DNA of 13,129 nucleotides. Origin: Oscillospiraceae bacterium (GTDB taxonomy: Bacteria; Bacillota_A; Clostridia; Oscillospirales; WRJC01). The stretch spans positions 1-13,129 of the forward strand of contig WQXD01000075.1 in NCBI GenBank assembly GCA_009785015.1. Direction: 5' to 3'. Within the stretch, counting starts at the first letter, position 1; the number at the start of each line of letters is the position of its first letter. This document shows positions 2,751 through 13,129 of this stretch, in pieces. The position numbers were made by a program, and so were the translations under genes. The notes beneath the pieces were generated by a model. The model saw only the letters and a list, made by a program, of their open reading frames with translations. It was not told the DNA's origin and did not search any database.

Positions 2751-3620
2751 TCATAAATCGGCCACTTCAACGTCAAGGCGTATCTTAGCGACGTCGTCGA
2801 TGTTTTTATCCCAGTCGACCACATAGACGATACTGCGGTACTTGATCGAGCGCACGGGGCAGTCCGCGCCGCCGTAAACAAAGAAATTCCCTTGTAATGC
2901 AATATGCGAAACATGGCGCAGAAAGCTCTCCAGAGCGGCGCTGTTGTTCGCCGCGACTTCGCGCAGGGTAAAGAACTTCAGCGCTTCATTTTCATTTGGC
3001 AGCCATTTGATGAAGAATTTGAGGAATTTTAGCTGCCGGCCGTATTTCTTGACCACATACTGTTTATAATCCCACTGCTCGACGGCTCTCCCGCGCGCAA
3101 GCTCTTCTCCAAAAGTATCGTGCAGCACATAAAACCCGTCGTCTTCGAGCGTAAGGGCGTTCTTGTCCCTGACGCGCAGCCTCTTTCTTATGATATTGGT
3201 GACAAGCTCCGAGTGCCGCAGGTAATACGGCATACTGCCGCGTTTCTTTTCGAGCATTTTCTGCGCGGCGAGGTTGTCCTGCAATATGGTCGTATAGGTC
3301 AGTTTGGCGCCGTTTTCGGCGCAAAACTCTTTTATCATTTGGTACGCCTTCGGAATATTGGTCGGCGAAACCGCGCGCAGCCCGGTCAGGTAGGCGACGC
3401 CGCCTTTTATAACGCAGCCGCCGACGCCGACGATCTTCCCCTCGGCATTTTTGGCGATTACAAACGTCGATTTATCGCCGTCTTTGGCGAGCGAGGCCAC
3501 CGCGTTCGGCCTGCGGCAATAGGCTATTGAGATACCGCCCTTAAACTCCGTATCTTCGAGCAGCGCGGCAATTTCCTCTCCGTCCTTCTCCGCCGCGTAT
3601 TCGTAACTGAAATCCTTCAT
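2751..3620 (-). CDS. GNAT-family acyltransferase, last gene of the radical SAM operon
   Basis: This 289-residue protein has an N-terminal GNAT fold (about 1-140). It shows the central strand F53-V-I-A-K with G61-K-I-V-G-V-G-G-C, the V75-A-Y-L-T-G-L-R strand, and an N116-L-A-A-Q-K-M-L-E-K-K-R segment typical of the last GNAT helix. GNAT proteins move an acyl group, usually acetyl from acetyl-CoA, onto an amine. About 150 further residues form a second domain I do not recognise, so it is longer than a minimal GNAT (about 150-180). It begins 5 bp after the preceding radical SAM gene stops, with a GGAGG rather far (15 bases) upstream. In context it may modify or detoxify the pathway product. The substrate is unknown. 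No GC-rich terminator follows the gene. Confidence 0.75.
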   Translation of the reverse strand: MKDFSYEYAAEKDGEEIAALLEDTEFKGGISIAYCRRPNAVASLAKDGDKSTFVIAKNAEGKIVGVGGCVIKGGVAYLTGLRAVSPTNIPKAYQMIKEFCAENGAKLTYTTILQDNLAAQKMLEKKRGSMPYYLRHSELVTNIIRKRLRVRDKNALTLEDDGFYVLHDTFGEELARGRAVEQWDYKQYVVKKYGRQLKFLKFFIKWLPNENEALKFFTLREVAANNSAALESFLRHVSHIALQGNFFVYGGADCPVRSIKYRSIVYVVDWDKNIDDVAKIRLDVEVADL

Positions 3621-3625
3621 TTTCT

Positions 3626-4963
3626 TTATTTCGCGCCTCCTTCGTCAAGCCCCGCGCCTACGGGGAGATCGAGTTTTTTGTCGACTTCTTTGCCGAGCGC
3701 CTTGTTTTGTGAAAAAAATATCGCCGTGATCATCGGATTCGGGTTCCGCCCAATCGAAGCCAGCCCGCGCTTGAATATGTTAAACGGGCTAAAAAACCGC
3801 CTCCGGGCAGCGGCGCACTTCTCTTTCAGCTCTTCGTGGGACATCTGCATGGGGCGGTAAGGTATATCCCCGTATCTGTACCCCTCTTTGAGCCACCACT
3901 TATCATACAAGAGCCTGCCCGACTGCTGCAGGCGCTCATAGAGCGGCGTACCCGGGAAGGGCAGCAGGTGATTGAACGCGGCAAAGAAAAACTTGTGCTT
4001 CATGGCAAATCTGAGCGTGTCCTCAAAAGTTTCCTCGGCGTCCGCGTCAAACCCGAAAACAAATGTCGCATAGATTCCGATGCCCGCCTTGTGCATTTTG
4101 CGGACGAGCTCGTCGCGCTCGCCCAGCTTGTAGTTCCAGCTTTTATTCATCTGGTCGAGGTTCTTTTTGTCAAGGCTTTCAAACCCGATCAAAAGCACCT
4201 GACAGCCGCTCTTTTTCATCGCGCGAAGAAGCTCGCCGTCTTTTGCCACGGCCAGTGACGCCTGGCTCGTCCACTTGATTTTGAGCGGCGCGACCGCTTC
4301 GCACAGGGCCATGAGGTGGCCGCGGTTTGCGGACAGGTTGTCATCGACGAAAAACACAAACTTGTTTTTCGCCTGTTTGATCTCGGCGACTATATCCCCT
4401 ATGGGACGCGGCGTGTAATTGGCGCGGTAAAAGCAGGTGACCGCGCAGAACTCGCAGTGGTTGGGGCAGCCGCGCCCCGTTTCGATCAGGGAGAGGGGAA
4501 GATATTTTTTTGTTTTGTAGACGCTCCTGTCGGGCATTGGCGGTATGCCGCCGCGCCCGCCGTCGTAGCGGGCTTGCAGCCTGTTGTTTTTAAAATCGTC
4601 GAGCATGGCCGCCCAAACCGGCTCCGCGTTGCCGACGACGATGCAGTCGGCGTGCCGCGCGGCTTCGTCGGGCACGGCGGTGACGTGATACCCGCCCATG
4701 ACGACGGGTATGCCCCTTTTTTTGAATTTCGCCGCTATATGATAGGCGCGGGCGGCGGTGTATGTTTCAACCGATATGGCGGCTATGTCGGCCTCGACGG
4801 AATAATCTATGCTCTCAATTCGGTCGTCAAACAAATGCGTTTCGATATCGGGGGGCGTAAGGGCCTTGAGCGCGGCGATCATGAGCGGTTCCATCTTCCA
4901 GGTCCCGATATACTGCTCGCCGTCCTTTTTCCCGATTGCGGGAAGGATAAATAACAGTTTCAT
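3626..4963 (-). CDS. B12-binding radical SAM enzyme, paralogue 1
   Basis: This is a 445-residue enzyme. Residues 1-130 form a Rossmann-like cobalamin-binding domain with V88-M-G-G-Y-H-V-T-A-V-P-D-E-A and a G111-N-A-E-P-V-W segment. The B12-ligating D-x-H-x-x-G motif is missing, as is usual in radical SAM relatives. The radical SAM barrel follows, with C166-P-N-H-C170-E-F-C173 for the [4Fe-4S] cluster and the F-V-D-D-N-L strand near 205-210. A C-terminal extension carries P-F-P-G-T-P-L-Y and K-W-W-L. This architecture is shared with the BchE/HpnP-type enzymes. I chose the start at 4963 (MKLLFILP): it has GGAGGTG 7 bases upstream, overlaps the preceding stop by 4 bp (ATGA), and matches the paralogue starts. 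It is closest in sequence to paralogue 4. The reaction is unknown. Confidence 0.88.
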   Translation of the reverse strand: MKLLFILPAIGKKDGEQYIGTWKMEPLMIAALKALTPPDIETHLFDDRIESIDYSVEADIAAISVETYTAARAYHIAAKFKKRGIPVVMGGYHVTAVPDEAARHADCIVVGNAEPVWAAMLDDFKNNRLQARYDGGRGGIPPMPDRSVYKTKKYLPLSLIETGRGCPNHCEFCAVTCFYRANYTPRPIGDIVAEIKQAKNKFVFFVDDNLSANRGHLMALCEAVAPLKIKWTSQASLAVAKDGELLRAMKKSGCQVLLIGFESLDKKNLDQMNKSWNYKLGERDELVRKMHKAGIGIYATFVFGFDADAEETFEDTLRFAMKHKFFFAAFNHLLPFPGTPLYERLQQSGRLLYDKWWLKEGYRYGDIPYRPMQMSHEELKEKCAAARRRFFSPFNIFKRGLASIGRNPNPMITAIFFSQNKALGKEVDKKLDLPVGAGLDEGGAK

Positions 4964-6288
4964 ATGTTCACCTCCGGTATGTCGCTGTTGTCGCACATGA
5001 CCTCTTTTGTAAAGCGGATAAACTTATCCGCGTATGTCCGGTATGCGAAGTTTGTCATATAGCTGATCGGGCTCAGCTTATTTATGCGCTTTAGAATACT
5101 TCCGGTTTTGTATGTTTCGCGCCACGCCCATTCGGTGCCCTCATACAGCTCGTCGGCGGTCATATTCTTTGGATGGAACACTACGTGTTCCACATCATAC
5201 ATGGCGGGTTCATATTCGAAAATACGCCCCTGCTCATCTAAGCTGCGGTAGAGCTCCGTATTTGGAAACGGGGTCAGTATGGAGTATCTGGGCAAGTCTA
5301 TGCGCAGACGCCCGACTTCCTCGACTGTGCGCTTGAAGACGTCCTTATCGTCGTCGTCGCCGCCGAAAGCAAAACAGCCGTTGATCAGAATACCACTGCC
5401 GTGCAGCCGTTTGACCAATGATTCGTAGCTATGGATCTTGTTCACGCCTTTTCGTATATATCCCTGCGCCGCCTGGTCGACGCTCTCAAAACCGATAAGC
5501 AGGCCCTTGCAGCCGCTCTTTTCGAGTATCGCGTAGAACTCATTGTCGAGGGCGACGCCGGAAGTGGTCAGCCCGAACCACCGCTTTTTGAGCGGTATCA
5601 TGGCGCTGAAGAGCCGTTTCGCGTAGTCCATGTCGGCCAGCAGGTTCACATCGGGGAACAGCACATATCTGCCCCCGAGCTGCTCGATTTCGGCGATCAC
5701 ATCGTTTACGGGCCTGCAAACCGGCGTTTTGCCGAATGCCGCCGGGTACGCGCAGAAAGTGCAGGGCAGAGGGCATCCTCTCACCGCCTCCACGGAATTG
5801 ACGGTTATATACGCGCGCGGCTTTAAAAGATCGCGCCGCGGTATCGGCCGCTTTTCGAGGGTAAGGGGTTCGCACTGCCTGTAAACGGACTGCAGCCTGT
5901 TTGCCCTGTAATCGCGAAGCGCCTGCGGGAATGTGCGATCTGCGACGCCTGTAAATACGGCGTCGCAATGCTTACCCGCTTCCGCGGGGTCAAGGGTGGG
6001 CTGCACCCCGCCCAAAAACACGGTGATTCCCCGAAAGCGGAAGTAATCCGCATACCGGTACGCCCTGGAGCTCGTGCCGGTTATCGCCGTTATCACGGCG
6101 ATATCGGCGTCGAGGGAGAGCGGTATCGCCTCGACTGTTTCGTCGTAAATTTTCATATCCGCTTCCATTTCCCCCGGGACAAGGGCGGCGAGCGTCGTCA
6201 TGGTGAGCGGCGCGTAGTGCAGCCCTTTGCCGAAGCTCCCGTTATACCTGTGCATTGCCCCCGCCGGGGACAAAAACGCTATCTTCAT
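4960..6288 (-). CDS. B12-binding radical SAM enzyme, paralogue 2 (divergent)
   Basis: This 442-residue enzyme has the same two-domain plan as the others. The cobalamin-type domain (1-135) carries F91-L-G-G-V-Q-P, and the cluster motif is C172-P-L-P-C176-T-F-C179. It is the most divergent of the four. The His of the G-G-x-H motif is Gln, the G-x-A-E-P-V-W segment becomes G114-V-A-D-R-T-F, and the C-terminal K-W-W-L block is replaced by a shorter acidic stretch before H-P-K-N-M-T-A-D-E-L. It starts 23 bp after the permease stop behind AAAGGAAAGGGG and overlaps paralogue 1 by 4 bp. The divergence suggests a different substrate or step. The product is not predictable from sequence. Confidence 0.86.
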   Translation of the reverse strand: MKIAFLSPAGAMHRYNGSFGKGLHYAPLTMTTLAALVPGEMEADMKIYDETVEAIPLSLDADIAVITAITGTSSRAYRYADYFRFRGITVFLGGVQPTLDPAEAGKHCDAVFTGVADRTFPQALRDYRANRLQSVYRQCEPLTLEKRPIPRRDLLKPRAYITVNSVEAVRGCPLPCTFCAYPAAFGKTPVCRPVNDVIAEIEQLGGRYVLFPDVNLLADMDYAKRLFSAMIPLKKRWFGLTTSGVALDNEFYAILEKSGCKGLLIGFESVDQAAQGYIRKGVNKIHSYESLVKRLHGSGILINGCFAFGGDDDDKDVFKRTVEEVGRLRIDLPRYSILTPFPNTELYRSLDEQGRIFEYEPAMYDVEHVVFHPKNMTADELYEGTEWAWRETYKTGSILKRINKLSPISYMTNFAYRTYADKFIRFTKEVMCDNSDIPEVNI

Positions 6289-6311
6289 AAAAACCCCTTT
6301 CCTTTAAACGG

Positions 6312-7472
6312 CTAAACGGCCAGCATTGACCCGGCCGCCATCAAGATATAGCAAACCCCGACAAACAAAATAAGCCAAAGGGCGCCCCCAAGCGGACGCG
6401 CCATCACCCGCTCGTCCCCGTTACCCGACAGCTTATGCGCGTTTTTATACGCGGGCAGCAGTAAAAGCGCTATTATGACCGCCACCGCGCCGCCCGCGAC
6501 GCCTATAAACGACGTAAACGAAGCGCCGCTGAACAGCGCCAGCAAAAGGCAGGGGAGCGTAGATATCATATAGACCGGCCATTTTTGCCTGTTTGCGCCC
6601 AGCTGCTCGCATACCATATCGGACAGCGCGAGCGAAATCGCCCAGTAGGAGGTTATCATGGCTCCGAGCACAAGCAGAGAGCCGACGAGCCCGACCGGCG
6701 CGCCGAGCGCCGCGCTCCAGCCGACTATCGCCACTTTGGTCACCGTGTGTGAAGCGCGCAGGGCCGAAAAACATATTGCCAGACTCATACCGAGGTTGAT
6801 ACCGACGCCGGCGGCAATGGCGGCCTTGATCGCCTGCGGCCTCCGCTCCAAGCCCTCGACGGCCTGCGGTACGGAAAAAAGCGCGGAAAACGAAAACATC
6901 GCCAGCCCGTAAAGGGCGAAAACCGCTTTGGCGCCCGCCGGGAAAGCGGGGAGCGCGTTGCTGCCTTTGGCGAAAGAAACCGCAAAAAGCGCGCCCGCTG
7001 CCGCAATCATCACGAGAACCGTCGCCTTTTCGGACACTCCGAGCGCCTTCAGGCCAAGTATCGGGACTATCGCGGCGGCCAGATACAACGCGATCATAGA
7101 CGCCGCCGGCGGCGCGCCTGTCAGCTCTGAGATTATATCCGCGCCTCCGGCTATGTAGGCGCTTAAATTGAACAGCAGCGTGATAAGAAGCAAAACGAAA
7201 AACCCGGCCGTAAGCGGCGTTTTCAGTTTGCCTCTGAACAGAAATTCCCGGAATACGGACAATATACCGCTGCCGTTTTTCGCAGTCAGCAGCATATCGG
7301 CGATCATAAAATGCAGCGCGACCGTCACGAGATACGCAAAGCACAAAACAAGAATCGTGCCCAGCCATCCCGCATGCTGCGCCAGAAACGGCAGCGCCAT
7401 GAGCCCGCCGCCTATTCCGTTGCCGGCGACGGTGCACGCCGCCTCAAATGTCGTGAGTTTCTTTGGCTTCAA
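6312..7472 (-). CDS. Amino-acid permease of the aromatic amino acid (HAAAP) type
   Basis: This 386-residue inner-membrane protein has about eleven hydrophobic segments. It opens with T13-V-A-G-N-G-I-G-G-G-L-M-A-L-P, the glycine-rich first helix of proton-coupled permeases of the Mtr/TyrP/TnaB and wider amino-acid/auxin permease group. The length matches (about 390-415). The start is TTG at 7470-7472: the in-frame stop TAG lies only 12 bases upstream and no ATG precedes the first helix. The TTG overlaps the stop of the small ORF at 7469-7555 by 4 bp (TTGA), implying coupled translation. Sitting mid-operon among the radical SAM genes, it probably imports the pathway substrate or exports a product. 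Aromatic specificity is a family-level guess; no substrate residue is diagnostic here. Confidence 0.85.
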   Translation of the reverse strand: MKPKKLTTFEAACTVAGNGIGGGLMALPFLAQHAGWLGTILVLCFAYLVTVALHFMIADMLLTAKNGSGILSVFREFLFRGKLKTPLTAGFFVLLLITLLFNLSAYIAGGADIISELTGAPPAASMIALYLAAAIVPILGLKALGVSEKATVLVMIAAAGALFAVSFAKGSNALPAFPAGAKAVFALYGLAMFSFSALFSVPQAVEGLERRPQAIKAAIAAGVGINLGMSLAICFSALRASHTVTKVAIVGWSAALGAPVGLVGSLLVLGAMITSYWAISLALSDMVCEQLGANRQKWPVYMISTLPCLLLALFSGASFTSFIGVAGGAVAVIIALLLLPAYKNAHKLSGNGDERVMARPLGGALWLILFVGVCYILMAAGSMLAV

Positions 7473-7555
7473 ATAAAAAACCTACTTTCTTTTATAGGCG
7501 CGGACGGCGCCGGAAGTTCGGTTTCCCACGGCAAAAGCAGCAATATTTTCATCAT
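7469..7555 (-). CDS. 28-codon ORF between radical SAM gene and permease
   Basis: The peptide starts MMKILLLLPWETELP and ends KESRFFI; its middle is rich in Pro and Ala. Its ATG overlaps the upstream stop (ATGA), its TGA overlaps the permease TTG start (TTGA), and an AAGGGGGAAGG lies just upstream, so it is very probably translated. Two readings compete. The M-K-I-x-L-x-x-P start, with Pro at position 8 counting from the second Met, matches the first eight residues of all four radical SAM paralogues, so it may be the stub of a lost fifth copy. Alternatively it is a genuine small peptide, for instance a substrate of the radical SAM enzymes or a leader that couples permease translation. The sequence alone does not decide. 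Confidence 0.55.
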   Translation of the reverse strand: MMKILLLLPWETELPAPSAPIKESRFFI

Positions 7556-8913
7556 TCGCCTTCCCCCTTTTCGAAATGTTTCAGCCCGAACTTCAGGCCT
7601 TGTTTTTTGTGGACTTCTTTGCGGAAAAGCGGATTGTACAGCCAGTATGTGAGAAATTTTTTCAGCGTCCGCATATTGGTCTTCGGCTCAAATGACCTGT
7701 ACAAGACGGAAAGCGGACTGTTGAAACGCTTGCGGCAGTAAAAGGACAGGGCCGTCAATTCTTCGGCTGTCATGTTCTTTGGTACGAATGCGGCGTGGTT
7801 GAACCTGTAATCATCGTGCAGCCACCACTTGCCCCCATACAAAAGCCTGCCCTCTGCTTCGAGCTGCCTGTATAAGGCGGTCTGCGGGTAGGGCATGAGT
7901 ATATTGAACGCGGCAAATGTGAATTTGTTTTTGAGCGCCCACTCGAGGGTCCGCTCTATATTTTCTATCGTGTCGGTATCGTGCCCGAGTGTGAACGCCG
8001 CCCAGGTCTGGAGCCCGTATTTGCGGAGTATCCCGACTTCGCGCGCGTATTCATTGAAGACGCCCTGCGGCTTGTTTATGTCTTTGTTCATCAGGGAAAG
8101 GCTGCCGGGATTCAGGGACTCAAATCCTATCACAAAACCCATGCCGCCGCTTTCCACGATGAGGCGCATGAGCTCGTCGTCGTAGACCATGCCGACGGTA
8201 CCCTGGCTCACCCAGTTGATTTTGAGGGGGATGAGCGCGCGGCACAGCTCCTTTGCGCGCTCGACGTCGGCCACGAGGTTGTCGTCGACGAAAAATATGA
8301 GCTTGCGCTTCTGGGCTTTTATTTCGGCGACGACCTCATCGACGGCGCGGCAGTAATGCTTCTTCTCAAAGTAGACGCTGCCCGCGCAGTAGCTGCAACC
8401 GTGTATACACCCGCGGCTGAACTGCATCAGCGAGACGGGGAGGTAACCCTTGCCCGTAAACAGATCCCGCCGTGCCGGCAGCCTGTGCTGCGGCGGGTCG
8501 GCCACGCCGCATTGATATAGCGGTTTTAGCGCGTTTGCCTTCAAGTCCCCGATTATCGCCGGTATGATGTTTTCCGCGTCGCCCGAAACAGCGGAGGTGC
8601 AATGTTCCATGACTTCTTCGGGCGCGAGCCTGACGTGCATGCCGCCCATGATGACGGGGACGTTCCGGCGGCGGTATTCGGCGGAAATCTCATAGGCGCG
8701 CTTGGCGGTAAAGGTTTCCACGGTGATCATGACCGCATCGGTGGGGTCGTCGAACGGTATTTCTTCCATGCGGTCGTCGATGAGGGCGACCTCTGTATCG
8801 GAGGGAATAAGCGCCGCGATGACGCCGAGCTGCAGGGGCTCCATACGCCCCTCGTCGACATAAAGCTCGCGGCTCTTTGTCCCGATTGTCGGCTTGATCA
8901 GGGTGATTTTCAT
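7552..8913 (-). CDS. B12-binding radical SAM enzyme, paralogue 3
   Basis: This 453-residue enzyme starts MKITLIKP. The cobalamin-type domain spans 1-130 with V87-I-M-G-G-M-H and G111-D-A-E. The radical SAM cluster motif is C169-I-H-G-C173-S-Y-C176. An I-F-F-V-D-D-N-L strand, a G-F-E-S-L segment, and the C-terminal M-P-Y-P-Q-T-A-L-Y and K-W-W-L-H-D-D-Y blocks follow in the same order as in paralogues 1 and 4. It begins 2 bp after the stop of paralogue 4, with GGAGG 12 bases upstream. Cys residues beyond the cluster motif are few, so no auxiliary iron-sulfur (SPASM-like) cluster is expected. Members of this class perform methylations or ring-forming oxidations; which applies here is unknown. 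Confidence 0.88.
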   Translation of the reverse strand: MKITLIKPTIGTKSRELYVDEGRMEPLQLGVIAALIPSDTEVALIDDRMEEIPFDDPTDAVMITVETFTAKRAYEISAEYRRRNVPVIMGGMHVRLAPEEVMEHCTSAVSGDAENIIPAIIGDLKANALKPLYQCGVADPPQHRLPARRDLFTGKGYLPVSLMQFSRGCIHGCSYCAGSVYFEKKHYCRAVDEVVAEIKAQKRKLIFFVDDNLVADVERAKELCRALIPLKINWVSQGTVGMVYDDELMRLIVESGGMGFVIGFESLNPGSLSLMNKDINKPQGVFNEYAREVGILRKYGLQTWAAFTLGHDTDTIENIERTLEWALKNKFTFAAFNILMPYPQTALYRQLEAEGRLLYGGKWWLHDDYRFNHAAFVPKNMTAEELTALSFYCRKRFNSPLSVLYRSFEPKTNMRTLKKFLTYWLYNPLFRKEVHKKQGLKFGLKHFEKGEGE

Positions 8914-8915
8914 AT

Positions 8916-10214
8916 TTATCCGTTTCCTCCGTGCTTCAATTTCTGCTTGCGCCGTATCTCAATGAAAGAGACCAAATTGATCAGCGCGAACACAAAAAAA
9001 TGCCTGATATTGACAGGCTTCAGCGCCCGCCAAAATATGCTTCGCAGCGAATAAAACCTGTAGCGCAGTTTTTTGCAGCCCTCGGCAAGCTGTTCGGGCG
9101 TCATATTGTCGGGATAGTGCGTGGCGTCGCCGTATTTGTATGTATCGGCCAGCCACCACCGGGAATCTATGAGCTTGCCCTGCCTGAGAAGGTCGTCGTA
9201 TAGAGCCGTCCCCGGCATGACTAAAAGCGGATTGAAATTCACTATTGCCGGCTTGTGCTTCATCACAAATTTGTACACGCACTCAAAACTTTCAACGGTA
9301 TCGCCGGGGTAGCCGAAAATGAAGGCGGCGTAGAGCATTATGCCGTATGAGTGGATTACGCGCACGGCGTCGTCATATTCCGCGGCGCGCTGCCGTTTTC
9401 CCATTTCCGTAAGCGCGGCCTCGCTCATGCTCTCAAAACCGACTATGGCCATAATACAGCCGCTCTTTTTCATAAGGCCCAGTATTTCAGGGTCTTTGGC
9501 CACGTTGACGCTTATCTGACAAGCCCATTTTTTCTTCAGCAAAGCGAGCTCCGTCAAAAATATTTTCAATTTGGCTCTGTCGTGCAGTAAATTGTCGTCG
9601 GCTATGAAGAAGATTTTCTCTTTGGCGGCGGAAATTTCCCGGATGACGTCGCTTATTTCGCGCTCGGCCACGCAGGAACTATAAAAAGCGTTTATGGAGC
9701 AGAAATTGCAATTGTATATACACCCGCGCTTCCATTGCGCAACGCCTATTTTCGCGTATTTCTTGCCGTTGAAAACGGAATGGTCAGTACTGCGAAATGG
9801 CAGCATGATGCCGTTTGCGGAGGCGTAGAGAGGTTTCAGGGAGCCCCTTTGGAGATCGGCAATCAGAGCGCCCCAGACGGGTTCCGCATCGCCCGTGACA
9901 ACGCAGTCGGCGTGCCGGAGCGCTTCATCCGGAACGGCCGTGGCATGGAAGCCGCCCATTATGATTTTCAAATGCGGGTTTTTTTGCCTGTACTTTGCCG
10001 CGAGAGCATAAGCGCGTTTGGCCGCAAGAGTTTCGACGCTGAACACAGCCGCTTCGCCGTCAACGGCGTCGGGCAGTTTCTCCACGCACTCGTCGTAGAA
10101 TACCGCGGTCACGTCTTTGGGCGTAAGGCCGCGTAAAATTGCGAACACCAACGGCTTCAGGGCGTCGCTCGATTGTTTTCCCGTCATACTGGGACGGATA
10201 AAAGTTATCTTCAA
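8916..10214 (-). CDS. B12-binding radical SAM enzyme, paralogue 4
   Basis: This enzyme has 432 residues when started at the TTG at 10212-10214. That start gives the family-typical (M)KITFIRP and has a GGGGG 9 bases upstream. A longer GTG-initiated form (from 10235) would place the ribosome site inside the gene. The cobalamin-type domain carries I84-I-M-G-G-F-H-A-T-A-V-P-D-E-A and G108-D-A-E-P-V-W, nearly identical to paralogue 1. The cluster motif is C165-I-Y-N-C169-N-F-C172. The C-terminal part has M-P-G-T-A-L-Y and R-W-W-L. The N-terminal domain is about ten residues shorter than in paralogues 1 and 3, lacking their Y-x-x-x-x-x-M-E-P region. It is the second gene of the operon, 28 bp after the URO-D-like gene. 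Confidence 0.86.
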   Translation of the reverse strand: MKITFIRPSMTGKQSSDALKPLVFAILRGLTPKDVTAVFYDECVEKLPDAVDGEAAVFSVETLAAKRAYALAAKYRQKNPHLKIIMGGFHATAVPDEALRHADCVVTGDAEPVWGALIADLQRGSLKPLYASANGIMLPFRSTDHSVFNGKKYAKIGVAQWKRGCIYNCNFCSINAFYSSCVAEREISDVIREISAAKEKIFFIADDNLLHDRAKLKIFLTELALLKKKWACQISVNVAKDPEILGLMKKSGCIMAIVGFESMSEAALTEMGKRQRAAEYDDAVRVIHSYGIMLYAAFIFGYPGDTVESFECVYKFVMKHKPAIVNFNPLLVMPGTALYDDLLRQGKLIDSRWWLADTYKYGDATHYPDNMTPEQLAEGCKKLRYRFYSLRSIFWRALKPVNIRHFFVFALINLVSFIEIRRKQKLKHGGNG

Positions 10215-10242
10215 TTGCAACAGCCCCCATATCACATCGTTA

Positions 10243-11289
10243 TTATTTCTTACCGGCTCTATGACGCCCTACAAGCACTAAGCGTTCGCCTTTTGTTATA
10301 TCCGCGGCTTTTTCGGCGGGCATGCCCTCGCAAGGACATAAATAGATAATCTGGTCGGGACGCAGCCCCGCGTGATATTGTGCCAAACCCTCGGAAGCGC
10401 GGTCGTTTAACTGAACGGCGCGCAAATTGTCCATACCGCGGAATACCGGTATATGGTGCTCGTGCGCGCCGCACAGGTGCATCATTCCGCCATTCGGGTA
10501 AACGCCCAAAAGCCCGCTGTCAAGGGGGGCAATCATTTCGCCGTAGCAGGCGGGCGAAATGAGCTGGGTGGTGCAGCCGCAAATTTGGCCGAACCCCGGC
10601 GGTTGTATACGCCCGTCGGGGAGCACGGGCTGTAACTGATCCGCCGGGAGCATGGCAATCAGGCGGCGGTGCAATTCTATCAGCGTATCATTGATTGTTT
10701 TCAAGTCGCGGGCGGCGGCGGCGGGCTCGCAGAGCATAGCCCTCAAAATCCGTTCGCCGTACATATTCACCGCCACATTGAGGACACTGGCGATGGTCGG
10801 CAGCCCGTAAACGGGAAGTTTCACGCCCGCGCCGGCAAACGCTTCCGTCATACGCCGCGTCAGCTGCCACGCTTCGCTTTTTTCTATATCCGGCTTAGGC
10901 AGTTCCCCCACTTCGCAATCCAGAAATTCGCTGTACCATTGGCCGTACTCGAAAAATACGTTGCATCCGAAAATACTGTCGGCGTAATGAACTCCGAAGA
11001 CGCCGTTTTGTATGCAGAGCGGCGTAAAAACATCGGGGTCTCCGGCTTGTTTCGCGTTTTCGGCCAAATTTTCCAGACATTCGCTCACCCAGCGTTCGGG
11101 TTCGCTGTACGGCAGCGAAAAATCGCCGGAATAACCGGTAATTCCACTGACGGCAAATACCGTTTTCGCGTCGTCTTCGCCGCAAAACAGACGCCGCAGG
11201 CGCGAAAGCCAGCCGTCGCGGATCGAAATAAGCGCCGAATCGTTCAATACGCGCCGGGCGGCGGCGCTCAGTTTTATATCCATCACCAT
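10243..11289 (-). CDS. Uroporphyrinogen decarboxylase / MtaA-type corrinoid methyltransferase-like protein
   Basis: This 348-residue protein has the URO-D (TIM-barrel) fold, a family that contains uroporphyrinogen-III decarboxylase (HemE) and the Zn-dependent methylcobamide:thiol methyltransferases (MtaA, MtbA). It has an H271-L-C273-G motif after G-G-M-M and a later Cys pair C318-P-C320. The H-x-C plus a distal Cys is the zinc-binding pattern of MtaA-type enzymes and is not a feature of HemE, so methyl transfer involving a corrinoid is the more likely role. It is the first gene of the operon, behind a TTGACT-N17-TAAAAT promoter. GGGGG precedes the ATG by only 4 bases; the ATG two codons further in (11283) has better spacing and may be the true start. 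The exact substrate is not readable. Confidence 0.75.
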   Translation of the reverse strand: MVMDIKLSAAARRVLNDSALISIRDGWLSRLRRLFCGEDDAKTVFAVSGITGYSGDFSLPYSEPERWVSECLENLAENAKQAGDPDVFTPLCIQNGVFGVHYADSIFGCNVFFEYGQWYSEFLDCEVGELPKPDIEKSEAWQLTRRMTEAFAGAGVKLPVYGLPTIASVLNVAVNMYGERILRAMLCEPAAAARDLKTINDTLIELHRRLIAMLPADQLQPVLPDGRIQPPGFGQICGCTTQLISPACYGEMIAPLDSGLLGVYPNGGMMHLCGAHEHHIPVFRGMDNLRAVQLNDRASEGLAQYHAGLRPDQIIYLCPCEGMPAEKAADITKGERLVLVGRHRAGKK

Positions 11290-11327: not shown

Positions 11328-11356
11328 ATTTTACCATCATTCGCCGAATAAGTCAA
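11328..11356 (-). promoter_or_regulatory. Sigma-A promoter of the URO-D/radical SAM operon
   Basis: On the minus strand TTGACT (11351-11356) and TAAAAT (11328-11333) are spaced by 17 bp. Transcription would start near 11321, about 30 bases before the ATG. The spacer holds a small inverted repeat, ATTCG-C-CGAAT (11339-11349), that could be an operator for a repressor. Confidence 0.7.
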
Positions 11357-11474: not shown

Positions 11475-13129
11475 ATGGGTATAGAAATCCTCAATGACGG
11501 GTCGCTGAAAAAGATTTACGTGATCGGACATTCCCATCATGACTATGCGTGGGAGCGCGAACGCCAGTGGCACATTCTGCGCTATTGCATGCTGTTCAAC
11601 GAGACGCTGAACTGGCTCAAGGCCAATCCCGACGCCACATGGCTTATCGACAACGTGGTGCACAGCCTGTTGCCTTTCTTTGAAAATTATCCCGAGCGGA
11701 TCGGCGAATTCAAGGATTATGTGAAAGAGGGGCGCATAGAGGTCTCCAACGGCGGCTACAGCCTTGCCCGGCCGTCCTATGTCGGCGAGGAAACTTTCGT
11801 GCGCAACCTGCAGGTCGGCGACGAATATTTTAAAAAATTGCTTGACATAGGCGAAATACCGTACTATTTAAACGTCGACACGGCGTCGGGCCAGCGGCAG
11901 ATGCCGCAGATACTGAAGCTCGCGGGCTTTAAATATTACAAATTCCAGCGCCCCGAGATATCGCTGAACCAGCGCAAGATACCGCGCGTCTTTTGGTGGA
12001 AAGGATTGGACGGCTCCGAAATATTGGTGGCAAGAAGCGCGGGTGTGGGCTTTTTCCACGTCCGGTACAGCAATATGGACTATGATACCCGGTGGGACGA
12101 GATACGCCGGGCGTTCTTTGACGAAGAGCTTGCCGCGCGGCGCCCGGACGGGCTGTTCACGGCCGACACGGAGCTCATACCCTACGGCTGCGACGACAGC
12201 TGCCCGCCGCTCAACTGGTTCGATAAAGAAATCAAGCTGGACGAATTTGTCAAAGAATGGAACAGGCGCGAGCCGGTCGAGTTGAAATTCGGCACGACGA
12301 GGCAATATTTCGAAGAGCTGGCGCAAAAAGATCTGCCTGTGTTCGAAGGCGGCTTGGACGATGCGGAACTGACTTTCAATTTGCCCGGGAAAGGCGACCG
12401 TTCCATGTGGCGTATGAGGGGCGACTTGGATAAATTGATCGTCCGGCTGGAAAACGTGTGCGCCATATGCGCTTTTATGGGCATACCCTATCCGGAGGAT
12501 GAAATAAACGGGCTGTGGCTCCAATTGTTCGAAATAACCGGCCACGCCATCGACTGGGTGCTGCAGAGCGACGATTTGGAGCTTTTGACAATCGCCGAAA
12601 ACGCGCGTACCAAAGCGGAAATGATGATAAAAAATTATCTGACCAAATTGGCGGGCAATGTGAAATATACAGACGGCCTGCTCGCCGCAGTTGTAAATAC
12701 GCAGGCTCGCGAACGGTGTGAAACCGTGCGCATGTGCGTGACTGACCCGCGCGGCGTGAAAAAATTCAAACTGTACGACGCGGCGGGCGGCGAACTGGAC
12801 TATCAAATCGTGGACCGAAATTCGTTTTTCTGCGTGCCCGAAGAATGGCGCAGGCACGACTATGTGTCGGTCGACGTCGTGACGCAAGTAAAAACGCCCG
12901 CTTTCGGCTATAACGCGATAACGGTAAAATACACGGACAACCCCATCGACGAAGAATCCGCGCAGATAAAATTGATCAGCCTGAGCGAAGCTGAAATCCC
13001 AACCGCGCCCGAAACGGAAATAGACGCGGGGGCATTGGAAATAAAGCTGTCCAAAGGCCGGATAACGAAACTGACCGACAAAAATACAGGCAGAACCATA
13101 CGCGCAAAAGACGGCGGGTCGTTGTATGG
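11475..13129 (+). CDS. Glycoside hydrolase family 38 (alpha-mannosidase-like), 3' end outside window
   Basis: 551 codons are present and the frame runs off the right edge. The GH38 catalytic domain is at the N-terminus, with V16-I-G-H-S-H-H22-D23-Y-A-W (zinc-binding H-x-D-x-x-W region), G86-R-I-E-V-S-N-G-G-Y and N133-V-D135-T-A-S-G-Q (the D-x-F-G-H nucleophile region). The alpha-mannosidase middle domain begins near 305 (G-D-R-S-M-W-R-M-R-G, then L-E-N-V). GH38 enzymes cleave alpha-mannosides by a retaining mechanism with a zinc ion. Oddities: the D-x-F-G-H motif reads D-T-A-S-G-Q, and the usual G-x-D-H ligand site seems to be G238-C-D-D, so specificity or metal binding may differ. GAAAGGA lies 11 bases before the ATG. 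It is divergent from the radical SAM operon and probably unrelated to it. A 339-codon minus-strand frame inside it is a shadow. Confidence 0.8.
   Translation, partial: MGIEILNDGSLKKIYVIGHSHHDYAWERERQWHILRYCMLFNETLNWLKANPDATWLIDNVVHSLLPFFENYPERIGEFKDYVKEGRIEVSNGGYSLARPSYVGEETFVRNLQVGDEYFKKLLDIGEIPYYLNVDTASGQRQMPQILKLAGFKYYKFQRPEISLNQRKIPRVFWWKGLDGSEILVARSAGVGFFHVRYSNMDYDTRWDEIRRAFFDEELAARRPDGLFTADTELIPYGCDDSCPPLNWFDKEIKLDEFVKEWNRREPVELKFGTTRQYFEELAQKDLPVFEGGLDDAELTFNLPGKGDRSMWRMRGDLDKLIVRLENVCAICAFMGIPYPEDEINGLWLQLFEITGHAIDWVLQSDDLELLTIAENARTKAEMMIKNYLTKLAGNVKYTDGLLAAVVNTQARERCETVRMCVTDPRGVKKFKLYDAAGGELDYQIVDRNSFFCVPEEWRRHDYVSVDVVTQVKTPAFGYNAITVKYTDNPIDEESAQIKLISLSEAEIPTAPETEIDAGALEIKLSKGRITKLTDKNTGRTIRAKDGGSLY

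Follow-up and report, generated by a model that had tools for sequence, protein, structure and literature searches.

A conserved, scattered operon of paralogous B12-type radical SAM genes and a tandem-GNAT acyltransferase gene in an Oscillospiraceae genome

Introduction

Few B12 radical S-adenosylmethionine (SAM) enzymes have known substrates. We analysed a 13,129-nucleotide stretch of DNA from an Oscillospiraceae bacterium (contig WQXD01000075.1 of assembly GCA_009785015.1, hereafter the window) which carries an operon of four B12-type radical SAM genes, rA to rD, together with a permease gene and an acyltransferase gene, gnat. In sister operons the place that the permease has in others is taken by a GH3 amide synthetase and a 230-residue partner, Y. 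Among the radical SAM enzymes, the HpnJ, BchE, PhpK, AprD4 and ladderane-type B12 families have what appears to be the same layout of B12-binding and radical SAM domains, but rA to rD score far under the cut-off of each of them. Eukaryotic N-myristoyltransferase (NMT) shares with gnat the two fused GNAT domains, an alignment from end to end and a conserved C-terminal residue. It differs in that the identity is only 10–13% and Pfam gives no NMT match for gnat, which is bacterial and linked in an operon to radical SAM genes. The tandem GNATs Eis/Eis2 and MAB_4324 are the best Foldseek matches of gnat, at 10–12% identity, and their gene context is different. Like NMT, Eis is described as using its C-terminal carboxylate, but it is longer than gnat and has an extra C-terminal region beyond the two GNAT domains (PMC8556138). 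The permeases of the operons match the profile of the Trp/Tyr permeases (HAAAP, TIGR00837), with the window copy far below the cut-off. GH3 proteins couple acids with amino acids; those of the sister operons have N, M and C domains, whereas the window itself has no GH3 gene. A bacterial GH3 protein, OlsH, makes N-acyl ornithine in ornithine lipid synthesis, and neither GNAT nor radical SAM occurs in the main text of the paper describing it (PMC12493201).

Gene content and distribution

Seven minus-strand open reading frames (ORFs) fill positions 11289 to 2751 of the window, as the initial annotation had described, in the order URO-D/MtaA-like gene, rA, rB, permease, rC, rD and gnat. The run is a genuine, conserved and scattered operon, which the URO-D/MtaA-like gene (10243–11289, 348 residues) adjoins from outside. 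The radical SAM genes are rA (8916–10235, 439 residues as called from GTG), rB (7552–8913, 453 residues), rC (4960–6288, 442 residues) and rD (3626–4996, 456 residues as called). The permease gene (6312–7472, 386 residues) lies between rB and rC, and gnat (2751–3620, 289 residues) ends the run. As the homologues of rD have 445 residues, its start is probably further in, at the ATG at 4963; that of rA is perhaps the TTG near 10214.

For the neighbourhood scan a 32-row alignment of gnat (A1) was searched against GTDB contigs, which yielded 27 loci. Together with L098, L099, L100, L102 and L103 these form a set of 32 loci, labelled by comparison with reference proteins. Loci truncated by contig or fetch ends count as misses in the gene counts, and the rD genes of L004 and L023 were counted though overlapped by antisense ORFs. 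Homologues of gnat are few (88), and relatives of the operon were found in Bacillota, Melainabacteria, Synergistota and WOR-3. All 32 loci contain gnat, 30 have rD beside it and 24 have rC. The two loci without an adjoining rD are L009, with a partial gnat alone, and L012, with just rC and gnat. Of the sets seen in full, the smallest are permease-rC-rD-gnat (L020, L021) and Y-GH3-rC-rD-gnat (L098). The genes rC, rD and gnat recur most, while rA, rB and a fifth radical SAM gene, rE, are additions. Where the initial annotation had all genes belonging together, rC, rD and the acyltransferase hold as the recurrent part and rA and rB are optional. The six window genes rA, rB, rC, rD, gnat and permease are all together in 3 of the 32 loci (L016, L018, L026), in other gene orders. 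A check of co-occurrence found rA, rB, rC, rD and gnat together across phyla, with the permease joining in 9 further loci, all of them Bacillota. This co-inheritance bears out the original idea of a dedicated gene set, with one gene removed.

An all-versus-all comparison of ORFs of at least 80 residues from 31 sources (the window, L001–L027 and L098–L100) gave this result: five families, namely radical SAM, gnat, GH3, permease and Y, occur in at least nine locus groups and the next families reach four. The distribution of gnat is rare and patchy, with 4 of 391 genomes in the class of L001 and 3 of 194 in the class of L005, each count including the centre genome. A literature search, judged by titles and abstract openings and with subscription journals mostly outside its scope, gave no cluster with matching gene content among the papers listed. 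As far as these searches go the operon is undescribed, in agreement with the initial annotation.

The distribution also bears on the possibility that the radical SAM enzymes and the acyltransferase modify a macromolecule such as a protein, tRNA or envelope polymer, while the permease or GH3 and Y merely supply a building block. Both NMT and Eis are able to use proteins as substrates (PMC7048800, PMC8556138), and the Sedimentibacter operon lies amid transcription and translation-type genes. However, we saw such a location only in the Sedimentibacter-type loci L016 and L018, and the patchy occurrence fits an accessory product better. We consider this explanation unlikely.

The URO-D/MtaA-like gene is the member that had to be given up. 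Its protein has no Pfam match at E values up to 10, the URO-D profile included, and its model shows a predicted UROD/MtaA barrel fold. An HxC pair has its H and its C conserved in all 43 aligned homologues, and a third Cys is shared by 35 of them (119 of 120 and 68 of 120 when counted with a looser pattern), which we take to be the zinc pattern of MtaA. Fold and residues would suit a tetrapyrrole or corrinoid methyl-transfer system centred on this gene, with BchE-like radical SAM enzymes, as would the best named family of rA, BchE at 95 bits. This score is below the BchE cut-off of 481 bits, however, and no full-length match to the URO-D/MtaA-like gene was found in any of 20 operon genomes, by sequence or by profile, whereas the control genome G057 was recovered (1e-165 with the profile, and 7e-112). 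G006 gave two weak partial matches in the profile search, on contigs other than its GH3 contig. We therefore ruled the gene out as an operon partner and rejected the tetrapyrrole pathway with it; this pathway is largely refuted and in our view highly improbable. In the window the gene is probably co-transcribed with the run. Its strongest relative among the genomes searched (L032:1501–2511) stands amid genes reading as sugar metabolism.

The radical SAM enzymes

All four enzymes are full-length, as first reported, with no internal stop and one intact CxxxCxxC each. The motif is present in 82 of the 82 operon radical SAM proteins of the tree set. Against Pfam Radical_SAM they score 52–60 bits, all above the cut-off of 29.5. 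For the cobalamin-type domain described in each, the B12-binding matches are significant but weak (E 4e-5 to 1e-7): three of the four are under the Pfam cut-off (28.6, 28.7 and 24.1 compared to 32.1) and rD is at the cut-off. None of the four contains a DxHxxG motif. The pairwise identity among them is 28–41%, and none reaches a curated cut-off of the named radical SAM families listed, which for rA are the top 25 of 28. HpnJ is the top named match of rB, rC and rD, and BchE that of rA. The best score overall was 109.5 bits for rD against HpnJ, where the cut-off is 577.6.

The tree was built from 82 operon radical SAM proteins, those of the window included, and 8 others. It splits the operon proteins into orthogroups A, B, C, D and E, and each window enzyme falls in its own cross-phylum orthogroup (rA in A, rB in B), as sister to its counterpart in L001, an Oscillospiraceae metagenome-assembled genome (MAG). 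By the tree one L011 protein belongs to orthogroup A, and the first rE of L002 stands apart. Among the 8 others, L056 is in fact the rD of L015, and L072 is a C-type gene located elsewhere in the same genome. The remaining outgroup proteins sit on very long branches, so the tree does not show that the five paralogues arose only once.

A rival reading is a pathway for a ribosomally synthesized and post-translationally modified peptide (RiPP), in which the radical SAM enzymes would modify a precursor encoded elsewhere and the tandem GNAT would acylate its N terminus as NMT does an N-terminal glycine. NMT acylates peptides (PMC7048800), and the weak radical SAM matches include the RiPP enzyme ApyD (rD 77 bits, cut-off 750). 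Against this, the operon strand of the gap of about 140 bp before the permease in L018 holds no more than an ORF of 20 codons, the gap after gnat in the same locus holds no ORF of at least 20 codons, and no recurrent small family emerged from the comparison limited to ORFs of at least 80 residues. A RiPP product seems to us improbable.

We also observed conserved tails. The rC orthologues share a DNSDIP-type C-terminal tail (4960–5005 in the window), expanded into DIP-type repeats in L023 (4080–5480), and the rD orthologues share a terminal tail VGxGLDE...K (3626–3700).

Two alternative front modules

The initial annotation had included an importer. The permease is indeed in the run, but it is an optional part that alternates with the pair of GH3 and Y. 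Over the 32 loci GH3 was found in 14 (13 with Y in view), the permease in 9, Y alone in one cut locus (L102), neither in 8 and both in none. For 20 whole genomes the counts were 9 with GH3, 9 with the permease, none with both and two with neither (G007, G015). Five sister-operon GH3 proteins match the N, M and C domain models, the C domain of L014 being under the cut-off. The window permease scores 46.5 bits against Pfam Trp_Tyr_perm (cut-off 22) and 47.9 bits against TIGR00837, under the cut-off of 350; 10 of 10 operon permeases match the latter profile. Within the operon permease family (A3) the window copy is 30–39% identical to the other nine. Used as a query against 196 genomes from a single class, none of them a known bearer of the family, it gave one weak match, and a Sedimentibacter permease gave itself and two weak matches in 196 genomes.

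For rC, the tree unites the nine loci that bear the permease in a single clade (100/100). For rD, the permease loci fall in an 11-row clade (100/100) with L017, L022 and L024, the rD of L023 being outside the tree set. L017, L022 and L024 show no permease; a search that covered the genomes of L022 and L024, but not that of L017, found one on another contig for L024 and none for L022. The window enzymes lie outside the permease clade, among the GH3-type operons.

Between rB and the permease we found a remnant that the initial annotation did not mention. Positions 7518–7552 on the minus strand correspond to about the first 12 codons of rE and begin on the rB stop codon, as does rE in L001. The stub agrees with the start of rE in L001 at 29 of its 35 bases, with an alignment score of 46 that was reached by 0 of 1000 shuffles (best shuffle 31 and 29 in two runs). 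The starts of six other L001 operon genes scored at most 24 against the region. The window permease occupies the place that rE, Y and GH3 have in L001. Since the window groups with the GH3-type operons and keeps the stub, the ancestor most likely had the gene order rA-rB-rE-Y-GH3-rC-rD-gnat, as in L001, and rE-Y-GH3 was replaced by the permease. The last bases of GH3 may survive before the rC start, where the window resembles L001, which a shared ribosome-binding site would explain equally well. L022 also holds an rE fragment.

The acyltransferase and the proposed pathway

The GNAT of the initial annotation is confirmed as an acyltransferase-type gene of the run and is more precisely a tandem GNAT resembling NMT and Eis. 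Its score against Pfam Acetyltransf_1 is 18.8 bits, below the cut-off of 20.7. The predicted model is a clear tandem GNAT spanning the whole protein and aligns end to end with NMT. A C-terminal Leu is the last residue in 86 of 88 homologues, and in the structural alignment the last residue superposes on the last residue of human and yeast NMT, as if the terminal carboxylate were a catalytic base as in NMT and Eis.

Given a GH3 enzyme, which alternates with an amino-acid-type permease, and an acyltransferase at the far end of the operon, the simplest reading is an N-acylated, amino-acid-like product. We tentatively propose, with a little less than even confidence, that the genes form an accessory operon dedicated to the biosynthesis of a radical-modified, N-acylated compound, either a small molecule derived from an amino acid or an amino lipid. 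The order of the steps, the chemistry, the acyl donor and the product are what we infer. The starting amine or amino acid would be imported by the putative HAAAP-type importer in operons of the window type and supplied as an amide by GH3 and Y in the sister type. Then rC and rD, with rA, rB and rE in the larger versions, would act in turn on unactivated carbons. Each radical SAM step would most likely be a C-methylation or C–C rearrangement via SAM radical chemistry with cobalamin. Finally the tandem GNAT would acylate the amine, with its C-terminal carboxylate as the putative base.

Several observations weigh against this pathway. For gnat Pfam gave no NMT match at E values up to 10, and a sequence comparison with the PDB yielded nothing convincing (best E 0.84). 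Among solved structures Foldseek ranks the tandem acetyltransferases MAB_4324 and Eis2 closest and NMT lower, which makes an acetyl group a possible alternative. The last residue of rD, a Lys, is nearly invariant too (118 of the 120 best homologues), and a conserved terminus alone is therefore no proof of catalysis. The sequences do not fix the radical SAM reaction, and methylation is a guess, given scores far under the named-family cut-offs. The 20 genomes behind the alternation of front modules are non-independent, many are MAGs and they may be incomplete. Finally, Y as half of gnat is unsupported, with no clear homology between the two (hhalign probability 13%, E 0.002).

More speculatively, the operons may represent an undescribed class of bacterial N-acylated metabolites, defined by a set of two to five B12 radical SAM paralogues, an NMT-like acyltransferase working through its C-terminal carboxylate and a swappable entry step in which the precursor is either made (GH3 and Y) or imported (permease). 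The window would then be one such exchange, with the stub of the deleted rE left behind. The swap hints at the precursor, as the permease seems able to replace what GH3 and Y make or use. A bacterial NMT-like acyltransferase, if the likeness is true down to the C-terminus, would bear on the origin of that mechanism. The radical SAM chemistry is directly testable, since the operon has as many as five paralogues and a clean boundary and occurs in cultured hosts (Peptoclostridium litorale DSM 5388, Sedimentibacter saalensis).

Regulation and flanking genes

Upstream of the run there is a promoter-like site on the minus strand (TTGACT-17-TAAAAT, 11328–11356), which is a consensus match only; the window contains 19 sites of this kind, and shuffled sequences average 13.0 (sd 4.2). 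An Rfam search gave no match in the window and six matches in 7 loci, all outside the operons, and we therefore rejected control by a known riboswitch. A GHKL sensor kinase and a LytTR response regulator (agr-like) lie downstream on the same strand (532–2634) behind a promoter-like site of their own (2669–2641). They were left out as partners because of this site and because the regulator recurs in L026 only. On the other side a divergent ORF (11475–13127), which presumably encodes an alpha-mannosidase (GH38), follows a perfect TTGACA-18-TATAAT site.

Among the other loci, the Sedimentibacter operon L018 (2020–13645) lies between the rpoA region and two ecfA-type ATPases with a CbiQ-type gene, a site which we take to break a classical gene order. 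The partial gnat homologue of L009 (670–1398), from a Deltaproteobacteria MAG, stands alone near a contig end with no further operon gene in view. The Gastranaerophilales-type operons L005, L006, L008 and L010 have an extra membrane-protein-like ORF upstream (222–229 residues, by inspection). Downstream of L005 Pfam identifies an amidohydrolase, and L006, L008 and L010 carry ORFs of similar size there.
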